From positions 1 to 34,204 of IMG/VR virus record IMGVR_UViG_3300017971_000567: 34,204 nt of DNA; one strand, written 5' to 3'. Under the pieces are notes generated by a model. It saw only the letters and a program-made list of their open reading frames with translations, was not told the origin of the DNA and ran no database searches. Positions 2,589 to 21,162 of this stretch are shown here, in pieces; within the stretch, counting starts at the first letter, position 1; each line of letters opens with the position of its first letter. Source of the stretch: a virus. A program made the position numbers and the translations under genes.

Positions 2589-3050
2589 ATGCCAAATCAG
2601 CAAAACTGGACACATATTGCCATCCATCATTCCCTGTCAGAAGATGGCACTGTCTTTAATTGGCGTGCTATCCGGAACTGGCATATAGACCACAACGGAT
2701 GGAAGGATGTGGGATATCATTATGGCGTGGAACTGATCAATAATACATATGAAGTCCTGGTGGGCAGACCACTGAATGAAACCGGTGCACATATCAAAGA
2801 AAAGAACATGAACCGGAAGGCAATCGGAATCTGTTTTGTGGGAAACTATGACAACAGTGCACCGTCCACTGAAATGCTGGATGTGGCCAGCAAACGGATC
2901 ATCATTCCACTGATGGACATATTCAATATTGACCAGAACCATATTGTATTTCACAGGGATTATGCCACTTATAAATCCTGCCCTGGAAAGATGTTCACCA
3001 GGCAACTTTTGCTGAATTCAATCATCAAATTAAATTCAGGTTTAACTTAA
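2589..3050 (+). CDS. N-acetylmuramoyl-L-alanine amidase (endolysin)
   Basis: A 153-residue amidase_2/PGRP-type endolysin that cleaves the amide bond between N-acetylmuramic acid and L-alanine in peptidoglycan at lysis. Visible active-site residues are zinc ligands H13 (motif IAIHHS), H122 (VFHRDY) and C131 (KSCPG), with Y43 and K129 as likely catalytic residues. This spacing closely matches T7 lysozyme (H17, Y46, H122, K128, C130), which supports ATG 2589, behind AAAGGA. An in-frame ATG at 2505 would add 28 residues, but that stretch is occupied by the duplicated hairpin at 2534-2569. There is no signal peptide, so release would need a holin. The family call is secure; use as endolysin is inferred from context. 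Confidence 0.93.
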   Translation: MPNQQNWTHIAIHHSLSEDGTVFNWRAIRNWHIDHNGWKDVGYHYGVELINNTYEVLVGRPLNETGAHIKEKNMNRKAIGICFVGNYDNSAPSTEMLDVASKRIIIPLMDIFNIDQNHIVFHRDYATYKSCPGKMFTRQLLLNSIIKLNSGLT

Positions 3051-3058
3051 TATTTTTC

Positions 3059-3146: not shown

Positions 3147-3473
3147 ATGACATCCCTGGAAATTTTTAGGACACTGCGGAAAAAGTCAGTGAATAAACTG
3201 ATCACGGAAGCAGACCTAAATAAACAGACCTACTATAATTTCATATCTGGCACAAACAATATTTCATATCAGGTCATCCAGAAATTTGATGATGCCCTGG
3301 GCCTGGCCGGATTCCTTCATATATCATATTTATTTGACCGGATGCATGCATCCGGGATCCGGCTGCAGCCGGACCGGACACACTTTCCACATAGGGAAAA
3401 ATACAAGGTGTATATTCATCTGATGATGAAATATCACCCTATTTTCAAACAAACAGAAAGGTGGCAATCATGA
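3147..3473 (+). CDS. small HTH transcriptional regulator
   Basis: A 108-residue protein whose residues about 15-52 look like an XRE/Cro-type helix-turn-helix (LITEADLNKQTYYNFISG followed by an amphipathic recognition/support helix). The C-terminal 50 residues are basic and short, with no peptidase domain, so it is more like Cro or a short repressor than a full cI. I chose ATG 3147 because AAGGAAAGG lies 7-15 bases upstream; a GTG at 3105 would add 14 charged residues and sit in the promoter leader hairpin. It is the first gene after the palindromic promoter, so autoregulation is likely. It overlaps the next gene as ATGA. Confidence 0.7.
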   Translation: MTSLEIFRTLRKKSVNKLITEADLNKQTYYNFISGTNNISYQVIQKFDDALGLAGFLHISYLFDRMHASGIRLQPDRTHFPHREKYKVYIHLMMKYHPIFKQTERWQS

Positions 3474-6407: not shown

Positions 6408-6526
6408 TAAATCTGGCATTATTCTGCACTGTCATGATCCTGGTCCCGGCTTTTGTTTTTTACATTGAAAATTTTGGCCATGGCTTAGATCATTTATTTA
6501 ATCAACTGAAATCATTCTTTAATTAG
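6389..6526 (+). CDS. 45-residue single-pass membrane protein
   Basis: After a short basic start (MDKRQ) comes one hydrophobic segment (about 6-25, LINLALFCTVMILVPAFVFY) and an amphipathic tail rich in H, F and N. Its start overlaps the zinc-finger gene by 19 bases; AAAGGA lies 12 bases upstream, a long spacing, so the start is moderately supported. Small membrane proteins in early operons often alter the host membrane or exclude other phages; nothing here is specific. Confidence 0.5.
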   Translation: MDKRQLINLALFCTVMILVPAFVFYIENFGHGLDHLFNQLKSFFN

Positions 6527-6540
6527 AAAGGAAGGTCAAT

Positions 6541-6813
6541 ATGGAATGGATCCGTGGTGTGCATATAATTGAAAGGCCCATTAAAGCTGACAGGGTCCCA
6601 TCTGGTGATGTGCTGATAAGCCACTGCAAAGACAATATCAATGGCAAAATATATGACACATATTCTGTCAGCATCAACACCCTGGGGACAGAAAATATCT
6701 GCAGCTGTTATAATCTGGATGTGGCCAAACTGGTGGCTGAAAAAGTCCTGATGAACCGGATTGAATTCATCGAATTATTCAAAAGGATAAAAGATGGAAA
6801 ATCCGGACATTAA
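6541..6813 (+). CDS. early protein of unknown function
   Basis: A 90-residue soluble protein with a beta-rich first half and a helical, charged C-terminus (VAKLVAEKVLMNRIEFIELFKRIKDG). No family is recognised. Start ATG 6541 has a good ribosome site (GAAAGGAAGG). The end overlaps the next zinc-ribbon gene by 20 bases. Confidence 0.6.
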   Translation: MEWIRGVHIIERPIKADRVPSGDVLISHCKDNINGKIYDTYSVSINTLGTENICSCYNLDVAKLVAEKVLMNRIEFIELFKRIKDGKSGH

Positions 6814-6943
6814 AAAACTTTATCCCACACCATTCATCCTGGTCCTGTGGATCTGTCCGAAATGCCGGGCAGATCTTTACAGGCACCCAGATCACTATGA
6901 ATTCCAATGCCACAAATGTGGTGCCAAACTTAGAGTGAAATAA
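6794..6943 (+). CDS. 49-residue zinc-ribbon protein
   Basis: The frame encodes two CxxC knuckles, ICPKCR and CHKCGAKL, about 20 residues apart, ending with a basic strand: a classic single zinc ribbon. Start ATG 6794 lies behind AAAAGGATAAAAG and inside the end of the previous gene; the stop TAA 6941-6943 is one base from the next ATG. It is easily missed because it is so short. Confidence 0.6.
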   Translation: MENPDIKKLYPTPFILVLWICPKCRADLYRHPDHYEFQCHKCGAKLRVK

Positions 6944-6944
6944 T

Positions 6945-7139
6945 ATGAAATATCCATATTGCGAACAGTGCCGGAATTATTATCCGGATCTGGTCAGTGA
7001 AGTGGTCAGGCAGATCTGCTGTGAACACTGCAAGGGTGTCAATATGAAAAGGAAGGATAATAAAACCAGTAATTTTGAACCGGTCCGGGATGGACGAACA
7101 AAGAACATCCCTGGTGAACAGATCAGGATAAAATTATGA
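6945..7139 (+). CDS. 64-residue zinc-finger protein
   Basis: Contains YCEQCRNYYPD and ICCEHCKGV, paired cysteines near residues 5-8 and 26-29, then a basic polar tail without predicted structure. A zinc-binding module is likely. Start ATG 6945 follows the previous stop by one base, and its own end overlaps the next gene by the 4-base ATGA, so expression is probably by re-initiation. The function is unknown. Confidence 0.6.
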   Translation: MKYPYCEQCRNYYPDLVSEVVRQICCEHCKGVNMKRKDNKTSNFEPVRDGRTKNIPGEQIRIKL

Positions 7140-7471
7140 GCTGGCCAAAAAACATTTCATCAGATATAATCATGGCCCATTTAAAAGAAAGGGATGTGCA
7201 GGTCCGGGTAATAAATAAATTGACAGAGATATTAATTGAATCAATCCCAGGAATAACGATTGAAAAAAAGGGTGATGGCCACATCTATGTATGCAGGAAA
7301 TGTGGATCCACATTTTTTATTCATCCTGGATCATGTCCCAGGTGCCTGCAGATATTCATGAACAAAATGAATCATCAAAAGAAAAGGGCAATTTATGAAT
7401 ATAGGGAAAAAAGGGCAGCATCATTGGATGCTGGACAAAATCTGTGTCCACAAATGGACACAGATCCCTGA
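7136..7471 (+). CDS. 111-residue protein with zinc ribbon
   Basis: The N-terminal 50 residues form likely helices, followed by a zinc ribbon (VCRKCGSTFF ... SCPRCLQIF, about 52-71) and a basic helical tail. The last 77 bases overlap the next gene in another frame, which is much more than other overlaps here. Deleting one A from the A6 run at 7407-7412 would fuse this frame to the next gene, so its present C-terminus may be an artefact; yet the next gene has its own good ribosome site. Confidence 0.6.
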   Translation: MSWPKNISSDIIMAHLKERDVQVRVINKLTEILIESIPGITIEKKGDGHIYVCRKCGSTFFIHPGSCPRCLQIFMNKMNHQKKRAIYEYREKRAASLDAGQNLCPQMDTDP

Positions 7472-7598
7472 AAAGTATGCCATTTTTGTTCAGTATAAAT
7501 GCACCAGAAAAGGATGTGACCGGAAGGTTGACTGTGCCCTTGAAATGCCTGCACTACTATTAAAACTATTATCAAAAAAGGATTGCAATGGCAAATGA
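7395..7598 (+). CDS. 67-residue Cys-containing early protein
   Basis: Contains KCTRKGCDRKVDC near residues 35-47 and basic flanks, possibly a further small zinc site. Start ATG 7395 has AAAAGGG six bases upstream, which supports an independent gene despite the 77-base overlap with the previous one; ATG 7428 is an in-frame alternative. Its end overlaps the primase start by 11 bases, so translation is coupled to the replication gene. Confidence 0.5.
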   Translation: MNIGKKGQHHWMLDKICVHKWTQIPEKYAIFVQYKCTRKGCDRKVDCALEMPALLLKLLSKKDCNGK

Positions 7599-10548
7599 CT
7601 ATGAAGAAGTAAAAAGCCGGGTGAACATCCTGGACATCATCCGGTCTGAAATATCGGGCCAGGTCAAAAAGGTGGGCATCAACTGGTTTAATCTGGATGA
7701 ATGCCCTTTTTGCCATGGCCATGACTGTTTCAGGATCCATGCTGCCCGGCAGTTCTATAATTGTTTCCAGTGTGATGCCGGTGGATCCGTTTTCAATTTC
7801 ATCCAGGACCTGCATGACAAATCACCATATGAATCCCTTCAATATCTGGCCGGTAAAATAGGGTATAATTTGCAAAACGGAAAACCGGAAGATGATGGAT
7901 CAGAAATTAGGCAAAAGATCTTCCAGGAAGCTGCTGCCTATTACCATCAGAAATTGCTGGATGATGAAAAAGCCAGATCCTGGCTGTCCAGGAATCGTGG
8001 CCACACCCTGGCAGCCATTAAAACTTTTCAGATAGGGTGGTCCGGATCCGGGAAAAACAGCCTTTTAAATCACCTAAAAAAAACATTTAAAAGCCAGGAC
8101 CTGGTGGCATCCGGTCTGGTCCGGGACCGGGATGGCCAGGTAGGTGATTTCCTGCCTAAAAATGTATATATCTTCCCACATTTCATCAATCAGAAGGTGT
8201 CACACTTTACCTTCAAAGATCCCTTGAAAAAATTGCAGTATCAGCTGGCAAATCAGTATAAACTGAATGGACATTTGTTCTATGGCCAGAATGCCTTTTA
8301 TCATGAAACGGTGGTCCTGGTGGAAGGTGAAAATGACCGGGTCACATCAATGCGTGTGTCCGGTGACAAAAACATTGCTGCCATCATCGGCCAGCCATCA
8401 CATGAACAGATTGATTTCATTAAAAGATATTGCCGTGGCAAGAAAATATATCTGTGTTTTGATATGGATCCGGCAGGTGAAAAGTACACCATGAAACTGA
8501 TAAATGAACTGACCGGCCATGTCCAGGTGATGGTGATAAGATTCCCGGAAAAAAAGGATATTGATGAATATTTAAGAACACTTAAAACGGATCCGGCTGG
8601 TGAATATTTTTCCCTGGTGGAAAAAGCGGTGGATGGAATCCAGTTCCAGATCCAGTGTCTTCCGGACAGTGATGAAACCATAAAGATATCACAGATATTA
8701 AAGCCAGTCCTGGAAAGAATTGCCAAGGTGGAAGATGATATTTTGGTGGAAGGATATCTGGAAATAATTAAATCAAAATATCCAAAGGTGGTGGTCCGGA
8801 CAGCAATCAAAAAACAGATTGATAAAATGAAATCTGCCTGGCAGGTTGAAAAGGCAGAAAAGAAGGAAATCCCAAAGGATGATTTTGGCCTGATCGAACA
8901 TGAAAACTGCTATTTTAAAAAATCTCATGATGGCAGCACCGTGAAGATCAGTGATTTTGTTTTGAAATTGCGGAAGATCTTTGTCATGGATGATGAACTG
9001 CATTATGAATGCATCCTGAAAAACCAGAAAAAGGAAGTATCCATGCCTGTCATATTTTCACCGGAAGACCGGATGGGTCTGCAGCAGTTTAGACTGAAAT
9101 GTGGTGCCCAGGGATCCTTTTATTTTTATGGGACACAGGCAGAAGTTTACCGGATCTGGAAGTATGAAGAAAACCAGGCCAATATCAAGGAAGTGATTCA
9201 CTATATCCAGAAATATGGATATGTCCAGGAACACAATCTGTGGCTGTTTGAAAATTGTGCAATCAAAAATGGGAAGGTCCATGAAATAAACCAGGATGGC
9301 ATTATCAAAATTGACAGCAAAGGATTCAAAGCAAAGGATGTCCTGGTCTATTCCGGTGACACACCCACTGTGAATGTCAAAGAAGATCCAGATCCGGAAT
9401 TCATGAAAAATGTCATTCATCATTTTCACAATATGATCGATGATGGGAAGGAAGATTCATTCAAGGGATTCCTGGCCCTGGGATTCATGGCTGCCACCGT
9501 GTATCTGAATGAAATATCAGCAGTTCATAAATGTTTTCCATTCTTTTATCCATATGGACCATCCGGGACCGGCAAGTCTGCCAGCACGTCAATCCTGCTG
9601 TCATTTTTTGGATTTGATGGCCGGTCTGAACCATGGGAATCTGCCACACCGGATGGCACCTTCAAATTTATGGAACAACTGTCCAGCCTTCCTGGATGGT
9701 ATGATGAATATTTAAACAGTGCAGACCGGAAATCAATCAAGATGCTGGGCATCACAAAAAATATATATAACCGTATCGGTGCAGGGAAGGGTGGCATCAA
9801 AAAAAGGCAGATCAACGTGGTCAATGGCACATTATGGATTTCTGGTGAAGATTCACCGGTGGACAAGGGTCTTCTGTCCAGGTGCGTTGTGGTCCGGTTT
9901 ACGGAAATAACAGAAAACAAAACAGCATCCTGGAAGTGGCTGCAGGAACATCAAACCAGGCTATCATCCATCATGGTCAAGTTGATCCGGGAAAAGACAG
10001 TGGCCCAGAAGGAAAAAGTCCTGGATGCCATTGAAAAATTCATCAGCCACATTAATCAGAATGGTGTGGGTGATAATAGGACAGCCGTGAATTATGCCAT
10101 CCCGGCAGCCTGTTTCTGGCTTTTGGATCATCATGATAATGACCAGGAATTCATGGATTTTGTGGTGGACCAGTGCAAACAGGAAAGGACCAGAAAAGAA
10201 GAAGAAGACATCACGGTCAAATTTTTCAATGACCTTTCATATATGCACAATAATGGCCGGACAAAAAACACCATCAGCGTTGATAAATTTGAAGGTGTCA
10301 TGTACATCTGCTATAATGAAATTTATAATGACTGGATCCGGCATTTAAGGGAACAGGGCACCTTCCAGATCTTCAAAAAAACAACAATCCTGGATTATCT
10401 CAAAAATCTAACCTATCACTGGCCATTGAAAGACAACCGGGCAAAATTTGGTGATTACCGGAAAAGGGCCATTGCATTTAAGCTGGATAAAATGCCCATT
10501 GAAGTCAGAGATCTGTTTGATTCAAGGGAAGATGTCTGGGATGAATAA
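7588..10548 (+). CDS. DNA primase-helicase
   Basis: A 986-residue replication protein with three parts. (1) A CHC2-type zinc finger with C39, C42, C59 and C62 (CPFC ... CFQC), as in DnaG-type primases. (2) A Toprim catalytic domain with E246/E248 in VEGEND and D292/D294 in FDMDPAG, followed by DIDEYL. (3) A C-terminal P-loop ATPase with Walker A GPSGTGKS (657-664) and likely Walker B D706/E707 in GWYDEY; the region resembles DUF927-like or viral helicase domains rather than DnaB. It would make RNA primers and unwind DNA at the phage fork. No DNA polymerase is recognised, so host polymerase is presumably used. Ribosome site AAAAAAGG precedes ATG 7588. Primase assignment is secure; the helicase subtype is not. 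Confidence 0.92.
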   Translation: MANDYEEVKSRVNILDIIRSEISGQVKKVGINWFNLDECPFCHGHDCFRIHAARQFYNCFQCDAGGSVFNFIQDLHDKSPYESLQYLAGKIGYNLQNGKPEDDGSEIRQKIFQEAAAYYHQKLLDDEKARSWLSRNRGHTLAAIKTFQIGWSGSGKNSLLNHLKKTFKSQDLVASGLVRDRDGQVGDFLPKNVYIFPHFINQKVSHFTFKDPLKKLQYQLANQYKLNGHLFYGQNAFYHETVVLVEGENDRVTSMRVSGDKNIAAIIGQPSHEQIDFIKRYCRGKKIYLCFDMDPAGEKYTMKLINELTGHVQVMVIRFPEKKDIDEYLRTLKTDPAGEYFSLVEKAVDGIQFQIQCLPDSDETIKISQILKPVLERIAKVEDDILVEGYLEIIKSKYPKVVVRTAIKKQIDKMKSAWQVEKAEKKEIPKDDFGLIEHENCYFKKSHDGSTVKISDFVLKLRKIFVMDDELHYECILKNQKKEVSMPVIFSPEDRMGLQQFRLKCGAQGSFYFYGTQAEVYRIWKYEENQANIKEVIHYIQKYGYVQEHNLWLFENCAIKNGKVHEINQDGIIKIDSKGFKAKDVLVYSGDTPTVNVKEDPDPEFMKNVIHHFHNMIDDGKEDSFKGFLALGFMAATVYLNEISAVHKCFPFFYPYGPSGTGKSASTSILLSFFGFDGRSEPWESATPDGTFKFMEQLSSLPGWYDEYLNSADRKSIKMLGITKNIYNRIGAGKGGIKKRQINVVNGTLWISGEDSPVDKGLLSRCVVVRFTEITENKTASWKWLQEHQTRLSSIMVKLIREKTVAQKEKVLDAIEKFISHINQNGVGDNRTAVNYAIPAACFWLLDHHDNDQEFMDFVVDQCKQERTRKEEEDITVKFFNDLSYMHNNGRTKNTISVDKFEGVMYICYNEIYNDWIRHLREQGTFQIFKKTTILDYLKNLTYHWPLKDNRAKFGDYRKRAIAFKLDKMPIEVRDLFDSREDVWDE

Positions 10549-11011: not shown

Positions 11012-11073
11012 TCAGAATGCCAGAATTCTTGCCGGTATGGGCCACTGTTAAACGATCCTATCCCGGCCATATG

Positions 11074-11129
11074 AAACCATTAACCATATAAAGAAAGTGG
11101 CTTAGAAGGCGAATATGGAAGCCACTTTC
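11074..11129 (+). promoter_or_regulatory. leader hairpin, copy B of a duplicated element
   Basis: AAACCATTAACC (11074-11085) is followed by a perfect 11-bp stem, GAAAGTGGCTT (11093-11103) with AAGCCACTTTC (11119-11129), around a 15-base loop AGAAGGCGAATATGG. The loop is nearly identical to that at 2544-2558. The stem ends just before AGGAAAGGA, the ribosome site of the next gene, exactly as in copy A before the amidase. There is no T-run, so it is not a typical terminator. Confidence 0.65.
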
Positions 11130-11386: not shown

Positions 11387-11454
11387 AATGGGGCATGACC
11401 AGAATATATATCAAAAAACCGGCAGCCATAAAAATGATGAAAAGCAAATCCGGC

Positions 11455-11587
11455 TGTCCACTATTATGTATAAATATACAATATATATATACTTATACAT
11501 GGACAACCAGTGGACAAACGGTGGACAAACGCTGGACAAATGGACAACCAGTGGACAATCATGGTCAGGCTGTCCATGCAATGTCCA
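11455..11587 (+). repeat. phased TGGACAA array beside AT-rich tract (candidate origin/operator)
   Basis: TGGACAA occurs at 11500, 11511, 11522, 11533, 11541 and 11552, with spacings 11, 11, 11, 8 and 11. Inverted TGTCCA copies lie at 11571 and 11582 (also 11 apart) and another at 11455. Directly upstream, 11461-11499 is nearly pure A/T. Phased iterons next to an easily melted tract are typical of replication origins; cooperative operator sites are the alternative. Short frames crossing the array are not convincing genes because the repeat unit is not a multiple of three. No gene is assigned between 11387 and 11658. Confidence 0.7.
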
Positions 11588-11658
11588 TGGGTTTGGCCAG
11601 GTTTAAATTAATTAATATCATATAATTATGTCCTGCTGTGGACAGTGGGACAGTAAAA

Positions 11659-11970
11659 ATGAATATAGGGTGGCCTATGGAAACACCGGAAAATTTGGGA
11701 AAAAAGAAATCTGATCATATGGAATATGTAAAAATCACCCAGGCAAAAGTGGCTGAATTGATGGGTGATCATGCTGATCAGATCTTTGAATGGCTGGAAA
11801 AAACACATCCGGATGAATACAAGGCCCTGGTCACGGAATGTTTTGTGGATGAAAACTATGCCAGGACCAAAGATCCGGAACAACTGAAAAATGATCTGCG
11901 TGCATGGTATAAAAAATGGAAGACATCAATCAAAGAATGGAAAGATCTACATGGAAATAAAAACATATGA
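11659..11970 (+). CDS. helical protein of unknown function
   Basis: A roughly 103-residue, mostly helical, charged protein (AKVAELMGDHADQIFEWLEK, then PEQLKNDLRAWYKKWK). No family is recognised. Possible starts are ATG 11659, ATG 11677 (just after AGGGTGG, spacing short) or GTG 11638; I chose 11659. It is the first gene after the TGGACAA array, so it may be the binding protein or simply the first controlled gene. The end overlaps the next gene by 20 bases. Confidence 0.6.
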   Translation: MNIGWPMETPENLGKKKSDHMEYVKITQAKVAELMGDHADQIFEWLEKTHPDEYKALVTECFVDENYARTKDPEQLKNDLRAWYKKWKTSIKEWKDLHGNKNI

Positions 11971-12187: not shown

Positions 12188-12807
12188 AAAAATTCTTTTA
12201 TCTGGCAATATTCTTTTTATTTATGGTCCCGGTGATGAATGATATGGAAGACACCCTGGCCTTTCATTATGAAGAATCAGTCTTCAATCCGGGCACAAAG
12301 GATGATCCTGATTATACATCATATTTTTATCCAGACTGGAAAAGAAGATATAATATTAAAACAAGATATGTGGATATCTGGAAAAAGGTGCCCTGCCCTG
12401 GTGGTGACACATTGATGGTTATAATAGGAACAAATCCTGTCTATGAAATTATATCTGGAAAAACATTTTTTAACATCAGGACCGGGACCTGGGCGATTGA
12501 TTATTTTCTTGAAATTCCAGCCTTCTTTTTTGATGGATGGCACCTGGCAAAACAATTCAGGTGGTGGATGATTTTCAATTTTGGATGGTTTTTGTGTGTT
12601 TATTTTATACTGGAATCAAAGCCAGGAATCCATCCGGCATCAGTTGTCATTGTGCCCAGAAAATTGAAAAAGGAAAGAATCATCAGGAAATGGTCTGCCG
12701 GGAAGATCTGGACATATACATATTTTCACTGGCTGATCAAATATGCTGTGATGGTTTACCTGGTGCACATGGCTTTTTTTGGATCACTTTTCACGGTGGA
12801 TATATAA
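12184..12807 (+). CDS. integral membrane protein of unknown function
   Basis: A 207-residue protein with an N-terminal hydrophobic segment (4-17), a polar, probably periplasmic region of about 90 residues rich in Y, D and P, and two or three membrane segments further on (around 120-143, WWMIFNFGWFLCVYFIL, and 180-205). Between them is a basic cytoplasmic loop (RKLKKERIIRKW). I do not recognise it. It overlaps the integrase start by one base (TAATG). Membrane proteins next to integrases in temperate phages often act in superinfection exclusion; no specific evidence here. Confidence 0.65.
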   Translation: MKKFFYLAIFFLFMVPVMNDMEDTLAFHYEESVFNPGTKDDPDYTSYFYPDWKRRYNIKTRYVDIWKKVPCPGGDTLMVIIGTNPVYEIISGKTFFNIRTGTWAIDYFLEIPAFFFDGWHLAKQFRWWMIFNFGWFLCVYFILESKPGIHPASVVIVPRKLKKERIIRKWSAGKIWTYTYFHWLIKYAVMVYLVHMAFFGSLFTVDI

Positions 12808-13805
12808 TGGCCGAATTGAAAGATATCCTGGAAGAATTTAAAAAATTCAAACTGGTCAACCAGGACAAAAGGGAATCATCTATCATCAGATATCTGATGA
12901 ACATCCGGGCATTCTTCAAATGGATCAGGAAGGATGATCCGGACCAGGTCACAATGGAAGATGTCCAAAATTATATCATCCATCTGAAAGTGGACCAGAA
13001 AAACAGCGTGAACACCCAAAAGATTAAACAGGCATCCATCCGGATTTTTTATGACTGGTATTCAAAAAGATATCATATGAAGAATCCATGTGAACTGATT
13101 GGACCTATCCAGGAAGAAATCAAGATCCCATCTATGTTCACACCGGATGAACTGACAAGGATGGTTTATTCCTGTGATACATCAAAAGCCATAGGAAGAA
13201 GGGATGCAGCCATCCTTTGTCTTCTGGCAGACACCGGGATCCGGATCAGTGAATGCCGGGCATTGAATCTGGGCAGCATTCAGATTCATGAAAATAATTT
13301 TGCCCTGGTGGTGCCCAGGGTGAAAAGCCGTGAAAGGATGGTGCCCTTTGGATATCTGACAGCAGGCGCAATGGTGGCTGAATTCTTTGCTGCCTATTAT
13401 CAGGACATTAAATATGTTCAGAACTTCAAAGATAATGATCCACTGTTTGTTCAGTATGGTCCAAAAGACCATGGTGACCGGCTGAATATTGCCGGTCTGA
13501 AAGGTGTCATTAGAAGGGCCAGGAAGAATGCCAATATCACAAAGCGGATCACTGCACACAGTTTCCGGCATTTCTTCGGGACCTATTCAGTAATTCATGG
13601 CACCAGGGTGGAACAGCTTAGGTTGCTGATGGGCCATGCCTGGCTGGAAACCACAATGCGATATATCCATATTGCTGATGTGATCAGTCCGGAAACTATA
13701 AAGCACCGTGGCACCACAGATCTGCAGGCACCGAAACACCAGGTGGGATTTGTGCAGATCTTAAAAAAGGCCAGGGAAAAACTAAACCTGGATGGTGCCA
13801 GATGA
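12807..13805 (+). CDS. int: tyrosine recombinase / phage integrase
   Basis: A 332-residue site-specific recombinase. The N-terminal SAM-like core-binding domain spans about 1-100 and the catalytic domain about 108-300. Active-site residues are visible: R146 (ADTGIRISE), H251 and R254 (HSFRHFFG), H277 (LLMGHAW) and nucleophile Y286 (TTMRYIH); a basic beta-hairpin residue near K173 is likely. There is no arm-binding domain before the core-binding domain, so it is closer to XerC/D-like integrases. ATG 12807 overlaps the preceding stop by one base; upstream in-frame codons overlap the membrane-protein gene and are unlikely. It would integrate and excise the prophage; the structured non-coding region at 14385-14720 is a candidate attP. 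Confidence 0.93.
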   Translation: MAELKDILEEFKKFKLVNQDKRESSIIRYLMNIRAFFKWIRKDDPDQVTMEDVQNYIIHLKVDQKNSVNTQKIKQASIRIFYDWYSKRYHMKNPCELIGPIQEEIKIPSMFTPDELTRMVYSCDTSKAIGRRDAAILCLLADTGIRISECRALNLGSIQIHENNFALVVPRVKSRERMVPFGYLTAGAMVAEFFAAYYQDIKYVQNFKDNDPLFVQYGPKDHGDRLNIAGLKGVIRRARKNANITKRITAHSFRHFFGTYSVIHGTRVEQLRLLMGHAWLETTMRYIHIADVISPETIKHRGTTDLQAPKHQVGFVQILKKAREKLNLDGAR

Positions 13806-14983: not shown

Positions 14984-15166
14984 ATGACAAAGACAAAATG
15001 GTGTGGCCAGGTCATAAATGAAATTGAACAATCATGGACCAGGGCAAAGGCTGATTATTCTATTATAAATCATCAGTCAATGCTGCTGGTGAAGGATTTT
15101 TTAAAGGATATAAGAAAAATCAGGAAAGCATATGAGTCTGAAAACAGATCACATAAAAGAAGATAA
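14984..15166 (+). CDS. small basic helical protein
   Basis: A 60-residue, strongly helical and basic protein (LLVKDFLKDIRKIRKAYESENRSHKRR at its end, paraphrased as alternating K/R and hydrophobic residues). Start ATG 14984 follows AAGGGGATTGA. It overlaps the next HTH gene by 35 bases. Possible nucleic-acid binding; no family is recognised. Confidence 0.5.
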   Translation: MTKTKWCGQVINEIEQSWTRAKADYSIINHQSMLLVKDFLKDIRKIRKAYESENRSHKRR

Positions 15167-15344
15167 ATTTTATTCACTGTGTGAAGCTGCCGGGATCCTG
15201 GATGTTCATTATAACACCATCCGGTCCCGGATCCGGAAGGGTGTTCTGGCTTACATAAAAGAACCGGAAGGACAATACCGGATCCAGGGTCAATTTTTAA
15301 TAGACTATCTGCAGCAGCACCATCATACCTGTGACAATACGTGA
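15132..15344 (+). CDS. MerR/excisionase-like HTH protein
   Basis: A 70-residue protein fitting the HTH_17 (excisionase/MerR-like) winged helix: FYSLCEAAGILDVHYNTIRSRIRKG then a wing (VLAYIKEPEGQYRI) and a short helix (about 12-62). Family members act as excisionases or small DNA-binding regulators, and similar HTH proteins can serve as small terminase-like DNA binders. Here it ends on top of three TGACA boxes that abut the consensus late promoter, so I favour a regulator of late transcription. The start ATG 15132 lies in the previous gene; no strong ribosome site is visible. Confidence 0.65.
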   Translation: MSLKTDHIKEDKFYSLCEAAGILDVHYNTIRSRIRKGVLAYIKEPEGQYRIQGQFLIDYLQQHHHTCDNT

Positions 15345-15392: not shown

Positions 15393-15596
15393 ATGCCACC
15401 GAAGTCAAAAAATGCCAGTTTTGCCACCACACTGGCCCAGGATAACCATATCAGATCAGGCCAATGGTCTGATATGGGCCTGGACCAGAAAGTGGCTGAA
15501 AACTTAAATATGAAGGCCATATGTGACAGAAAAAGAATCAAAACACTTTTTTTGCCCACCCTGCCGGGAATACTTCCGGACCAGCCAGTGGATTGA
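15393..15596 (+). CDS. N-terminal frame of the packaging gene, possibly frameshifted
   Basis: From ATG 15393 to about 15546 this frame has codon use like the rest of the window and encodes a plausible helical segment (ATTLAQDNH ... MGLDQKVAENLNMKAICDRKRI). After the T7 run at 15547-15553 the coding character moves to the +1 frame, the zinc-finger protein described next. Removing one T would fuse them in frame. There is no ribosome site, and the predicted transcription start lies only about six bases upstream, which argues against independent translation. Confidence 0.4.
   Translation: MPPKSKNASFATTLAQDNHIRSGQWSDMGLDQKVAENLNMKAICDRKRIKTLFLPTLPGILPDQPVD
15446..15477 (+). promoter_or_regulatory. 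leader hairpin downstream of late promoter
   Basis: CCATATCAGA (15446-15455) and TCTGATATGG (15468-15477) are perfect 10-base arms around a 12-base spacer. The hairpin lies about 60 bases after the predicted start of the late transcript and before GTG 15523. There is no T-run. It could be an antitermination or regulatory structure, or a DNA operator; it also lies within a possible coding frame. Confidence 0.5.
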
Positions 15597-16413
15597 AGAC
15601 CAGGAAAAGGGTCCTGTGGCCCATTGTCCTGTCTGTCAGAAGGCTGTCCATGAAGTTCCACATTATTATGCAAATCTGCAAAAAATGTGGGATAATGCAA
15701 CTGGTCCCACCACATCCACCGGAAAGAAAAGATCATCCCTGAACGGATATAAACACGGATTAAGATCCAGGAAACTTCATTTGATGGCACCGGCCATCAC
15801 CGGAAAATATCCGGAATGCACCGGCTGCCCATATTTTGAAGAATGCAAATCTGATTTCCAGTATTGCCCTGTCCAATTAGGGCCTGTCATGCAATTTCTG
15901 CAGGCATGGGAAAATGGCCAGGTGAATGATTTGAAACAAATCACCGGCATCACACATGCCAGGGTCTTTCAGATCCTGTCAATGTCCCTGCAGCAGATAT
16001 TTGAAAAGGGCACATTGCAGCCAAAAAAGATCAGCGAAAAAATAAACCAGATCCGGTCAGACGATGATGATGATCCGGAACACAAATATGATCACATTGA
16101 TGAAAGGACCACTGTCCTGGAATGGCAGGAGAATCCACTGATCAAAAGGATCCCGGAACTGATGAATGTTCTGGGCATGACAGCTGAACAGCAGATGATG
16201 ACACCGGCCAAAAAACAGGAACAGGACAATATTGAAGGATATCTGCGGGGTGAAGAATCAAAATCAGAAGATCTGAAAGAATTTATGCTGAATCAGAAAA
16301 AACAGATGCAGGATCTGAAGGATAAAATATCAACAGCTGTGGATAAAAGATCAGAAGACCGGGCCCTTAAAAATTATGAAAAGCAGAAGGCTGCTGAAAA
16401 GGATGAATCATGA
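15523..16413 (+). CDS. zinc-finger protein, candidate small terminase
   Basis: A 296-residue protein. The N-terminus has a zinc finger (FCPPCREYF ... HCPVCQK, about 10-38), then a second four-cysteine cluster (CTGCPYFEECKSDFQYC, about 97-114). The middle has an HTH-like stretch (LKQITGITHARVFQILSMS) and the C-terminus (from about 230) is a long charged coiled coil. Position directly upstream of the large terminase, with an ATGA overlap, suggests the DNA-recognition subunit of the packaging motor, but I do not recognise a named family. GTG 15523 is used with GAAGG six bases upstream; the true N-terminus may lie in the frame beginning at 15393 if the T7 run is a frameshift. Confidence 0.7.
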   Translation: MTEKESKHFFCPPCREYFRTSQWIEDQEKGPVAHCPVCQKAVHEVPHYYANLQKMWDNATGPTTSTGKKRSSLNGYKHGLRSRKLHLMAPAITGKYPECTGCPYFEECKSDFQYCPVQLGPVMQFLQAWENGQVNDLKQITGITHARVFQILSMSLQQIFEKGTLQPKKISEKINQIRSDDDDDPEHKYDHIDERTTVLEWQENPLIKRIPELMNVLGMTAEQQMMTPAKKQEQDNIEGYLRGEESKSEDLKEFMLNQKKQMQDLKDKISTAVDKRSEDRALKNYEKQKAAEKDES

Positions 16414-18850: not shown

Positions 18851-20242
18851 ATGGCAGAACAGACAAACACCAAAAAGGATCCCAGGATATTCACCCAGGT
18901 GGGTCGGGCAGGATTTGACCTGCTGTATAAATATGGTATATCTGACAAGGAAAATCCTGATAAACTAATTTCATCCAAAGGGATGGAATATATTGAAAAA
19001 AAGGTGGAAAGGGACACCCATTTCACCAGTGTCCTGGCCACCAGAAGACAAAAGTTGATGAAAAAGGGATGGCGTGTGGATCCGGCATCCGATTCTGCCA
19101 GGGACATCCAGATTGCAGATTTTGTAAAAACACAGCTTAATGATATGCAGGGCAGTTTTGAAAATGATCTGGAAGCCATGCTGGATAAAATCAGCAAAGG
19201 ATTCAGTCTGACTGAAATCAATTATATTCCATTGGTGCGTGGCAAATATCAGGGTAAGGTGGGCCTGGAATCACTTAGATTTAAACCAGCCAAATATTTC
19301 ACATTCAAGTTTGATGATTTTGGCCGGTGGACCATCCGGCAATGGGATCCAAAGGAAACAGATCTGCCCACTTATAAATTTGTCCATGTCATCAATGGAC
19401 CAAATGATGAAAATCCATATGGTGATTCCTATGGTGCAAAATCTGCCTTCTGGGTGTGGCTGAAAGAAAATGAAGCAAAATTCTGGGCCATCTTTTCTGA
19501 AAGATTTGGCATGCCACTGACCAGGGTGGAAATGCCCACAAAAGCCACCCAGGAAGAACAGGATAAGGTGGATGATATTTTAGAAGCTGTCAGAAGGGAC
19601 ACCGGGATCCGGGTCCCAAAGGGATTCATGGTGGATTTCCTGGAAGCACAAAGGTCCGGTGATGTGGCGTATGACAATTTTATTGAACGGTGCAACAAAG
19701 AAATAAGCAAAATAATAATCGGCCAGACACTGTCCAGTGAAGAAGGGAAAAGGGGCCAGGGATCTTATGCCCTGGGCCAGACACATGCCCAGACAATGGA
19801 AGATTATATTGCCTTTGATGCATTTGATATCAGCCAGGCTGTAAACAAACAAATCATAAAAAGGCTGGTGGATTATAATTTTCTAACAGATACATATCCG
19901 GTCTTCAAATTCCTGGGCATTGATATTGGTGCCCTGATATCATTATCACAGACCATTGCAAATCTGGTCAAGGCTGGAATGAAGATCCCTGTCCAGTGGG
20001 CACATGAATCCACAGGGATTCCGATGGCCACCGGTGATGTGGAAATATTAAAGCCAGTGCAGGAAAGTGGGGAACCATCCGGCCTGGACAAAAGAGCAGG
20101 GATGGAAGAATTCCAGGATGATGATTTCATCCCAGATCCGGATGAATATGAAAAATTATATGATCTTTATTCAAAACAGGGAACCGGTATATGGACAGGA
20201 TTTATAAACTGGTTCAAAAAAGACAGTAAAAAAAAAATTTAA
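18851..20242 (+). CDS. portal protein, DUF935 (Mu gp29-like)
   Basis: A 463-residue protein with the DUF935 pattern: YIEKKVERDTHFTSVLATRRQ, FVHVINGPNDENPYGDSYG, FWAIFSERFGMPLTRVE, and the later IIGQTLSSEEGKRGQGSYALG. As in Mu gp29 it should form the dodecameric portal through which terminase packages DNA and to which the neck attaches. It is followed by a gpF-like gene as in Mu-type heads. The 3' end holds a run of ten A (20228-20237) before the stop, followed by a hairpin (see 20228-20262). No ribosome site beyond a weak A-rich leader is visible before ATG 18851. Assignment is secure. Confidence 0.9.
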   Translation: MAEQTNTKKDPRIFTQVGRAGFDLLYKYGISDKENPDKLISSKGMEYIEKKVERDTHFTSVLATRRQKLMKKGWRVDPASDSARDIQIADFVKTQLNDMQGSFENDLEAMLDKISKGFSLTEINYIPLVRGKYQGKVGLESLRFKPAKYFTFKFDDFGRWTIRQWDPKETDLPTYKFVHVINGPNDENPYGDSYGAKSAFWVWLKENEAKFWAIFSERFGMPLTRVEMPTKATQEEQDKVDDILEAVRRDTGIRVPKGFMVDFLEAQRSGDVAYDNFIERCNKEISKIIIGQTLSSEEGKRGQGSYALGQTHAQTMEDYIAFDAFDISQAVNKQIIKRLVDYNFLTDTYPVFKFLGIDIGALISLSQTIANLVKAGMKIPVQWAHESTGIPMATGDVEILKPVQESGEPSGLDKRAGMEEFQDDDFIPDPDEYEKLYDLYSKQGTGIWTGFINWFKKDSKKKI

Positions 20243-20262
20243 AACAGATCCGGAAGGGTCTG
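20228..20262 (+). promoter_or_regulatory. A10 run plus GNRA hairpin at portal/gpF junction
   Basis: Ten A (20228-20237) are followed after seven bases by CAGATCC-GGAA-GGGTCTG (20245-20262), a 7-bp stem (one G-T pair) closed by a GNRA tetraloop. The hairpin buries GGAAGGG, the ribosome site of TTG 20266. In addition A AAA AAA (20230-20236) is in the portal frame, and a -1 slip would enter the gpF frame, open from 20230. Either translational attenuation or programmed fusion would fit. Confidence 0.45.
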
Positions 20263-20265
20263 AAA

Positions 20266-21162
20266 TTGAAATATCTGCCGGTTGAACCATATGCAGATAT
20301 TGTGGCCAGATCAATTATTCTGGCACATTTATATGGCAGAAATGACATGAATGAAACCATGGGACAAATAAAGGCAAAATCATTCCAGGGAGAAGAAATT
20401 CCCACTGCCTATGATGCAGCTGTGAAATTCTTCCTGGCAAAGAATATCATCACTAAAGATCAGTTTGATCTGCTGGAAAAAAGGGCAAGAAAATATGCAT
20501 TCACTGTGGCCAAAGTTGACAGTGAACGTGCCCTGGAAGCCATAAAAACTTCACTGGATGATGCCCTGTCCCTGGGCCTGCCCATGGCAGAATGGCTGAA
20601 TAATGTGGATAGTGTTTTAATGAATTCCGGTATGCATGCATTGAATGATTTCCACTTAAAGACAGTATTCAGAAACAACATGCAGACTGCCCTGAATGAA
20701 GGCAGCATGGAAATGATGAAACAGGCAGATATATCAGAATTTCCATTGTGGCAATATGTGGCAATATTGGATGGCCGTGAAAGACCATCACATAAAGAAA
20801 ATCATGGATTTACTGCACCGGCAAATGATCCGGTCTGGCAGGTCCTGCAGCCACCACTGGACCACAACTGCCGATGCCGGATCAGACCGGTGCATACAAG
20901 TGAAGGATTAAAATCATCATCCGGAAAACCGGTGGTGAATCCGGATGAAATGAAATTTGTGACACCGGAAAAAGTCAAAAAGGCAAAGAAGGCTGCAGCA
21001 GCAAAGAAGGTTGCAGCAGTGAAAAAATCTGCAGCAAAAATCACTGATCCGAAAATGGTCCGGGAAGAAATCCGGAAAACCCATCTGGCCGAAATGAAAA
21101 AAATTGTTAAGATGGAAAACAAACAGGAAGAATATAAAAAATTGTGGTCAGTATGCCAGTGA
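20266..21162 (+). CDS. Mu gpF-like head morphogenesis protein
   Basis: A 298-residue protein with the MuF-type minor-head pattern: helical N-terminus, FRNNMQTALNEG, LDGRERPSHKENHG and the Cys-containing PPLDHNCRCRIRPV (around 206-219). MuF proteins decorate or join the portal inside the capsid in a few copies. TTG 20266 is chosen from GGAAGGG at 20252-20258; there is no earlier ATG in frame. After a lysine/alanine-rich stretch (about 244-260) the frame ends early: the conserved C-terminus continues in the +1 frame to 21271, so the reading frame is broken near the A6 run at 21136-21141. This is a sequencing error, a mutation or an unusual frameshift. Confidence 0.8.
   Translation: MKYLPVEPYADIVARSIILAHLYGRNDMNETMGQIKAKSFQGEEIPTAYDAAVKFFLAKNIITKDQFDLLEKRARKYAFTVAKVDSERALEAIKTSLDDALSLGLPMAEWLNNVDSVLMNSGMHALNDFHLKTVFRNNMQTALNEGSMEMMKQADISEFPLWQYVAILDGRERPSHKENHGFTAPANDPVWQVLQPPLDHNCRCRIRPVHTSEGLKSSSGKPVVNPDEMKFVTPEKVKKAKKAAAAKKVAAVKKSAAKITDPKMVREEIRKTHLAEMKKIVKMENKQEEYKKLWSVCQ

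Follow-up and report, generated by a model that had tools for sequence, protein, structure and literature searches.

The stretch analysed here, a 34,204-bp IMG/VR virus record with almost all genes on the + strand (the window), very probably carries the phage's replication origin at positions 11454-11653, an iteron-type element of the pri-rep-ori kind that would be used by the phage's own primase-helicase. This reading is supported by comparison, i.e., by the array and its layout, its place 3' of the primase-helicase gene, the drift of the repeat word at kept geometry and the match to the origins of P4 and the satellite EcCICFT073; from these sequence comparisons we infer the binding protein, the melting and the loading of the helicase, as well as the directionality and the activity as an origin.

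Repeat element and proposed initiator

Six exact copies of TGGACAA start on the + strand at 11500, 11511, 11522, 11533, 11541 and 11552, with the spacings of 11, 11, 11, 8 and 11 bp read in the initial annotation, which had also correctly recorded two inverted copies 11 bp apart (11570 and 11581), an 18-base block occurring twice (TGGACAACCAGTGGACAA, 11500-11517 and 11541-11558) and 39 upstream bases made up almost entirely of A and T (11461-11499, the highest A+T content among the 39-mers sampled in the window). The direct array is not due to chance: it holds six non-overlapping copies of one 7-mer within 62 bp, compared with at most three for any 7-mer in 200 dinucleotide shuffles of the entire window. 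Scanning for units with one mismatch gave a fuller element, including parts absent from the earlier list, namely the inverted unit at 11454, TGGTCAG at 11562, the inverted TGGCCAA at 11593, the second AT-rich tract and the pair at 11639 and 11647. From left to right, it comprises an inverted unit, AT-rich tract 1, the six direct copies followed by a degenerate one, three inverted units, AT-rich tract 2 and a direct pair, and both AT modules, taken from inverted-unit start to direct-unit start, measure 46 bp. The features are as follows; L004 is a 41-kb contig whose primase-helicase is 85% identical to that of the window.

7588..10548, + strand: 986-aa DnaG-type primase-helicase, proposed initiator (PF01807, PF08275, PF13155), the nearest large gene upstream
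11454..11460, - strand: inverted iteron unit TGGACAG, left border of AT module 1, starting 46 bp before the first direct unit
11461..11499, no strand: AT-rich tract 1, candidate unwinding element, 87% AT, 39 bp, holding TATAAATAT at 11469-11477
11500..11558, + strand: six direct iterons TGGACAA, exact copies, never more than three in shuffles
11562..11568, + strand: degenerate direct unit TGGTCAG, a copy not retained in L004
11570..11599, - strand: three inverted units from the unit scan, TGGACAG (11570), TGGACAT (11581) and TGGCCAA (11593)
11600..11638, no strand: AT-rich tract 2, 77% AT, 39 bp, also in L004 (85% AT)
11639..11653, + strand: direct pair TGGACAG/GGGACAG (starts 11639 and 11647, 8 bp apart), bordering AT module 2 on the right
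11677..11970, + strand: 97-aa protein of no known function, directly downstream of the candidate origin and outside the conserved module
12807..13805, + strand: tyrosine recombinase downstream of the candidate origin (PF00589, E 6e-25)

A coding repeat was ruled out, in line with the initial judgement that the array is not coding: across the array, the window and L004 differ at 10, 10 and 9 sites when counted by codon position, and whichever frame is read, some 20 of the 24 codons that changed encode another amino acid, so that the array is not translated under constraint. Scans for tRNAs and Rfam families gave no match. GC skew is positive nearly everywhere in the window, without a switch, and this check therefore says little on the origin. 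An 82-bp stretch is present twice in the phage at about 81% identity (2488-2569 and about 11048-11129), the second copy lying 370 bp before the element.

The proposed initiator combines a CHC2 zinc finger, DNAG_N and Toprim with a half that carries a P-loop (GPSGTGKS), and its profile matches comprise the TIGR01391 region and PHROG 6444/47/1139. Neither D5_N, DUF5906 and Pox_D5 (Pfam, E up to 0.1) nor TIGR01613 was found in it. AlphaFold modelled the helicase half at pLDDT 33 and the C-terminal 100 residues at pLDDT 61, too poor to show a winged helix at the C-terminus like the origin-binding one of P4 alpha (1KA8), and the fold search gave no match; a profile of the relatives' helicase half matched no solved structure. 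Between window and L004, the C-terminal part is 79% identical and the remaining segments 80-92%, a divergence only slightly higher at the C-terminus, which therefore does not single out a binding domain.

As partners of the array, the initial annotation had proposed the primase, the gene just downstream and the protein at 3147, and only the primase stood up to an all-against-all ORF comparison around 13 arrays. Here, the primase-helicase family was the only one common to all 13 loci, the other large clusters being its antisense shadows. The 97-aa protein encoded at 11677 is 55% identical in L004 and weakly matches PHROG 4779 (E 0.0024); no homologue was found in the loci other than L004, and it was dropped as a shared partner.

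Further genes of the window encode a Mu-type portal, a Mu F-like protein and capsid E as well as a terminase. The Mu-type portal and Mu F-like head genes (18851-21162) occur alongside the tyrosine recombinase and an excisionase-like HTH_17 gene (15132-15344). The product of 3939-4856 matches PHROG 6247 ("DNA topoisomerase") very strongly (E 2.6e-99), with a weak hint of a Spo11/TopVI Toprim. The gene that precedes the terminase gene (15523-16413) has a homologue at 6513-7244 of a Deltaproteobacteria MAG contig (L149), which may give a hint on the host range of the phage group.

Changing words at constant geometry

Comparison in relatives, as suggested in the initial annotation, showed the array to be present, with the twist that the word changes at kept spacing. 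The same array occurs in L003 (99.9% identical) and L126 (100%). In L004, the element lies at the same place and retains the spacings of 11, 11, 11, 8 and 11 bp and all flanking units with their distances, while all six direct copies read TGGTCAA or TGGCCAA and the inverted copies are altered too; the terminal 8-bp pair is unchanged (TGGACAG/GGGACAG). Co-evolution with a binding protein would give such a word change at kept geometry, and repeat homogenisation could have contributed to it in L004.

More distant primase-helicase homologues (about 25% identity), collected by protein search, come from phages, plasmids and bacterial MAGs. Each of these loci carries a repeat array just 3' of the primase-helicase gene, with a word of its own:

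L145, Desulfocapsa sulfexigens plasmid NC_020305: GGTGCA
L147, Flavobacterium phage laban6-1: TTGAGAA
L149, Deltaproteobacteria MAG contig: GGTTGAAG
L150, Nitrospirae MAG contig: GGGGCAG
L151, Proteobacteria MAG contig: GGTGCA
L156, Persicobacter plasmid: TGAGGAAA
L179: GGGTGC
L182: TGGTGCA
L183: GGTTGAGG
L184: GGGGGAA
L185: GGGGGAACC
L186: GGGGCACT
L187: GGGTGGA

A strict detector (one 6-mer four times within 140 bp, with at least two spacings of 10-12 bp) picked up arrays at 12 of 14 loci, all no more than 1.2 kb downstream of the gene, and none in the other 142 kb. The two loci missed, L147 (spacings 11 and 19) and L156 (11, 21 and 21), have looser arrays that fail the spacing rule only; for L184, the downstream sequence ends after 214 bp, which hold the left half of the layout. 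Between gene and array lie 951 bp with two small ORFs in the window and about 100-900 bp elsewhere.

Start to start, the left inverted unit precedes the first direct unit by 46 bp in the window, L004, L149, L182 and L187, by 48 bp in L145 and L151, and by 40-57 bp in the others. Direct spacings are 11, 12, 11 and 11 bp in L145 and L151, 12, 11, 10 and 11 bp in L149, L150 and L186, and 11, 11, 10 and 11 bp in L187, and the last direct unit is followed by an inverted one after 29 bp (window, L004, L149, L147, L186) or 27-28 bp (L145, L151, L150, L182, L187). In the seven loci first tabulated, the direct pair follows the inverted unit after 40-48 bp, and the spacing within the pair is 8 bp at every one of them (shuffle fraction 0 to 0.007) and also in L182; the right side of L179, L183, L185 and L186 fits the plan less exactly. 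Moreover, TATAAnTAT (up to two mismatches) occurs in 11 of 13 left AT tracts at a distance of 6-7 bases from the inverted unit (shuffle mean 2.1), a test that is partly circular because the motif was read from the same tracts.

Arrays were absent from the short DnaG-like homologues L152-L155 and from two large virulent phages with a homologue (D69 and Arash). In L166, an apparent insertion sequence begins directly after the primase-helicase gene (from about 3620), at the expected origin site. Clusters of GCGGTG/CACCGC (spacings 13, 9 and 11) were seen in L170, L172 and L173 near proteins of about 1130 aa that are related in the helicase half only.

Known origins and competing explanations

The element has the features of iteron origins, i.e., direct repeats at about one helical turn with adjacent AT-rich regions (87% and 77%), and those of pri-rep-ori modules, i.e., a site 3' of the initiator gene and opposed iterons around AT modules of fixed length. 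Counted against the origin reading were the 951-bp gap, the lack of a P4-alpha/PICI helicase match, the recombinase nearby in seven of 13 loci and the array-less phages D69 and Arash. The motif alone is not telling, since four copies of TGGACAA at 11 bp gave eight matches across viral contigs compared with five for the reversed control word, and the argument therefore rests on context and geometry. In L136 and L140 (about 4130 and 6228), the control word had matched intergenic TTATCAACAGG repeats 11 bp apart, which resemble tandem DnaA boxes.

Among known systems, the satellite EcCICFT073 has its origin 3' of the pri-rep gene, where it drives plasmid maintenance in E. coli (PMC6092414). In units of GGTAGA, this origin reads as an inverted pair at 9 bp, an AT module of 46 bp, a direct unit, 22 bp, three inverted units, 31 bp, two direct units, 22 bp, an inverted unit, a further AT module of 46 bp and a direct pair at 9 bp. 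As in the window, a primase-helicase gene is followed by iteron sets flanking AT-rich DNA, and the end modules, [--]-46 AT-[+] and [-]-46 AT-[++], share the 46-bp length, whereas the pair spacing is 9 bp instead of 8 bp. The window differs from such PICI/SaPI systems in that it represents a phage, not a satellite, and encodes terminase, portal and capsid of its own, in the run of direct units about 11 bp apart in the middle of the element, and in its DnaG-type fusion initiator without the D5_N, DUF5906 and Pox_D5 domains present in P4 alpha and EcCICFT073.

Likewise, phage P4 (NC_001609) fuses a zinc-finger/Toprim primase to a helicase and has 8-bp direct units 10-11 bp apart; its annotated type-1 repeats are GGTGAACA. 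The P4 ori can be written [+++] -22- [-] -43 AT- [++], where the three direct units are spaced 10 and 11 bp and the units of the direct pair 10 bp, and each copy of crr, located just downstream of alpha, as [--] -43 AT- [+][+][-], with an inverted pair at 9 bp. P4 and the window thus have in common an inverted unit, an AT module (43 bp in P4) and a direct pair, with the G-rich strand oriented the same way relative to the AT tract. They differ in unit sequences and protein family; moreover, ori lies about 4.7 kb from crr in P4, while the window element resembles crr and ori joined in one place. The window element would work like a P4/PICI pri-rep-ori origin with an initiator that appears to stand outside the P4-alpha/PICI family, where we do not file it because D5_N, DUF5906, Pox_D5 and TIGR01613 are absent and because the element belongs to a phage, one with head genes of the Mu type.

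Lambdoid O-gene origins of the Sf6/HK022/HK620 type, one of them annotated as putative origin in Sf6, likewise show an AT-rich stretch and then TGGACAA units 11 bp apart. However, these lie in two triplets 66 bp apart inside an O-like initiator gene, beside a DnaB-like helicase gene and without a primase-helicase fusion. TGGACAA triplets inside an O-like gene were seen in L005 and about 90 similar viral contigs, enterobacterial lambdoid prophages, and in Sf6 (NC_005344, 28385-28480; L135). In the unrelated phages L016, L063, L075, L139 and L141, 11-bp arrays (TGGACAA, TGGTCAA, TGGAACAGG) lie inside genes that, judged by eye, are O-type or replisome-organizer-like. A TGGACAA array at about 3028-3056 (- strand) of L046 comes after a 598-aa DUF5906 helicase gene (923-2719), so the same word also occurs with a P4/PICI-type helicase. 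At the end of the unrelated phage contig L125 (about 7430-7647), more than 10 TGGGCA(A/C) units, mostly 11 bp apart, adjoin small-terminase-like and terminase genes. The archaeal plasmid pRN1 also has its origin directly 3' of a primase-helicase fusion gene, but this origin is a stem-loop without iterons and the primase is of the archaeal type (PMC4234260).

The initial annotation had left the choice between an iteron-type origin and a cooperative operator. Helically phased repeats would suit cooperative repressors and the array stands just upstream of a gene start, the 8-bp pair ending 24 bp before the ATG at 11677, so that it could act as operator or silencer of the operon starting there. 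Yet the downstream gene varies among the loci while the layout is constant, the pair of fixed-length AT modules has its match in origins that are proven or annotated, and promoter matches in the region are near chance (five vs 3.1 expected). The origin is favoured because even in distant replicons the layout goes with the primase-helicase, and because P4 ori/crr and the tested EcCICFT073 origin have a matching arrangement; the operator is retained as a minor, improbable rival, and the array may have an additional regulatory role. Similarly small is the probability that the array is a recombination site, made up of an attP arm and accessory sites, for the tyrosine recombinase together with the excisionase-like protein (15132-15344). 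Arm-type sites are often short direct repeats, the P4 record contains 12-bp attP arm repeats, and the array has a tyrosine recombinase gene downstream of it in the window and close by in L145, L149, L150, L151, L183 and L187, i.e., in seven of 13 loci; flanks of just about 1.5 kb in L179, L182, L185 and L186 leave room for a more distant one there. In L147, however, the integrase is located at the opposite end of the linear record, about 37 kb off, with the array still beside the primase; in L156, the array is followed by parA/parB-like genes and yet stands next to the primase; the P4 arm repeats differ from its ori type-1 repeats; and in the window, 1.2 kb with other genes separate array and recombinase.

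Those par genes of the Persicobacter plasmid, which place its array between primase and partition genes, would fit a plasmid-type centromere (parC/parS) partitioning an extrachromosomal prophage, as ParR binds repeats of 10-11 bp in some plasmids. The scan of window proteins, however, recognised no partition gene, and most other loci have no par genes adjoining the array, which makes a centromere very improbable. The lowest probability, close to nil, falls to a cluster of host DnaA boxes: TTGTCCA resembles the DnaA box of high-GC bacteria (TTGTCCACA), and GTGGACAA is near the reverse complement of that box, but L004 shows TGGTCAA or TGGCCAA throughout, and in other relatives these positions are taken by unrelated words. 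A conserved host factor would not allow such word changes, and DnaA boxes were rejected.

Proposed initiation and a possible common origin grammar

For the probable phage origin, we propose the G-rich unit (TGGACAA in the window phage) as the binding site of the primase-helicase. Helically phased binding on the direct array, together with the border sites of opposite orientation, would bracket the two 46-bp AT modules, of which one or both would melt. The helicase half could then load at the melted module, after which the primase half would start synthesis.

Somewhat beyond an even chance, in our estimate, one origin grammar is common to three sequence-distinct kinds of primase-helicase replicon, i.e., the DnaG-type fusions in phages and plasmids, P4 alpha and PICI Pri-Rep, with the word diversifying while the geometry is held. 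The proposed grammar consists of an inverted unit, an AT module of 43-48 bp, a direct array at about 11 bp, an inverted unit, a second AT module and, at the end, a direct pair spaced 8-10 bp. Examples come from one tailed phage as well as its relatives, from plasmids, from MAG contigs of several groups and from the annotation of P4 itself. If true, free word change at held geometry would point to a common initiator architecture that assembles across each AT module. Should this grammar prove general, geometry instead of sequence could lead to origins and initiators in uncultured phages, and the natural series of words would offer a ready set for studying how DNA is read by the initiator and what makes AT modules of about 46 bp necessary.
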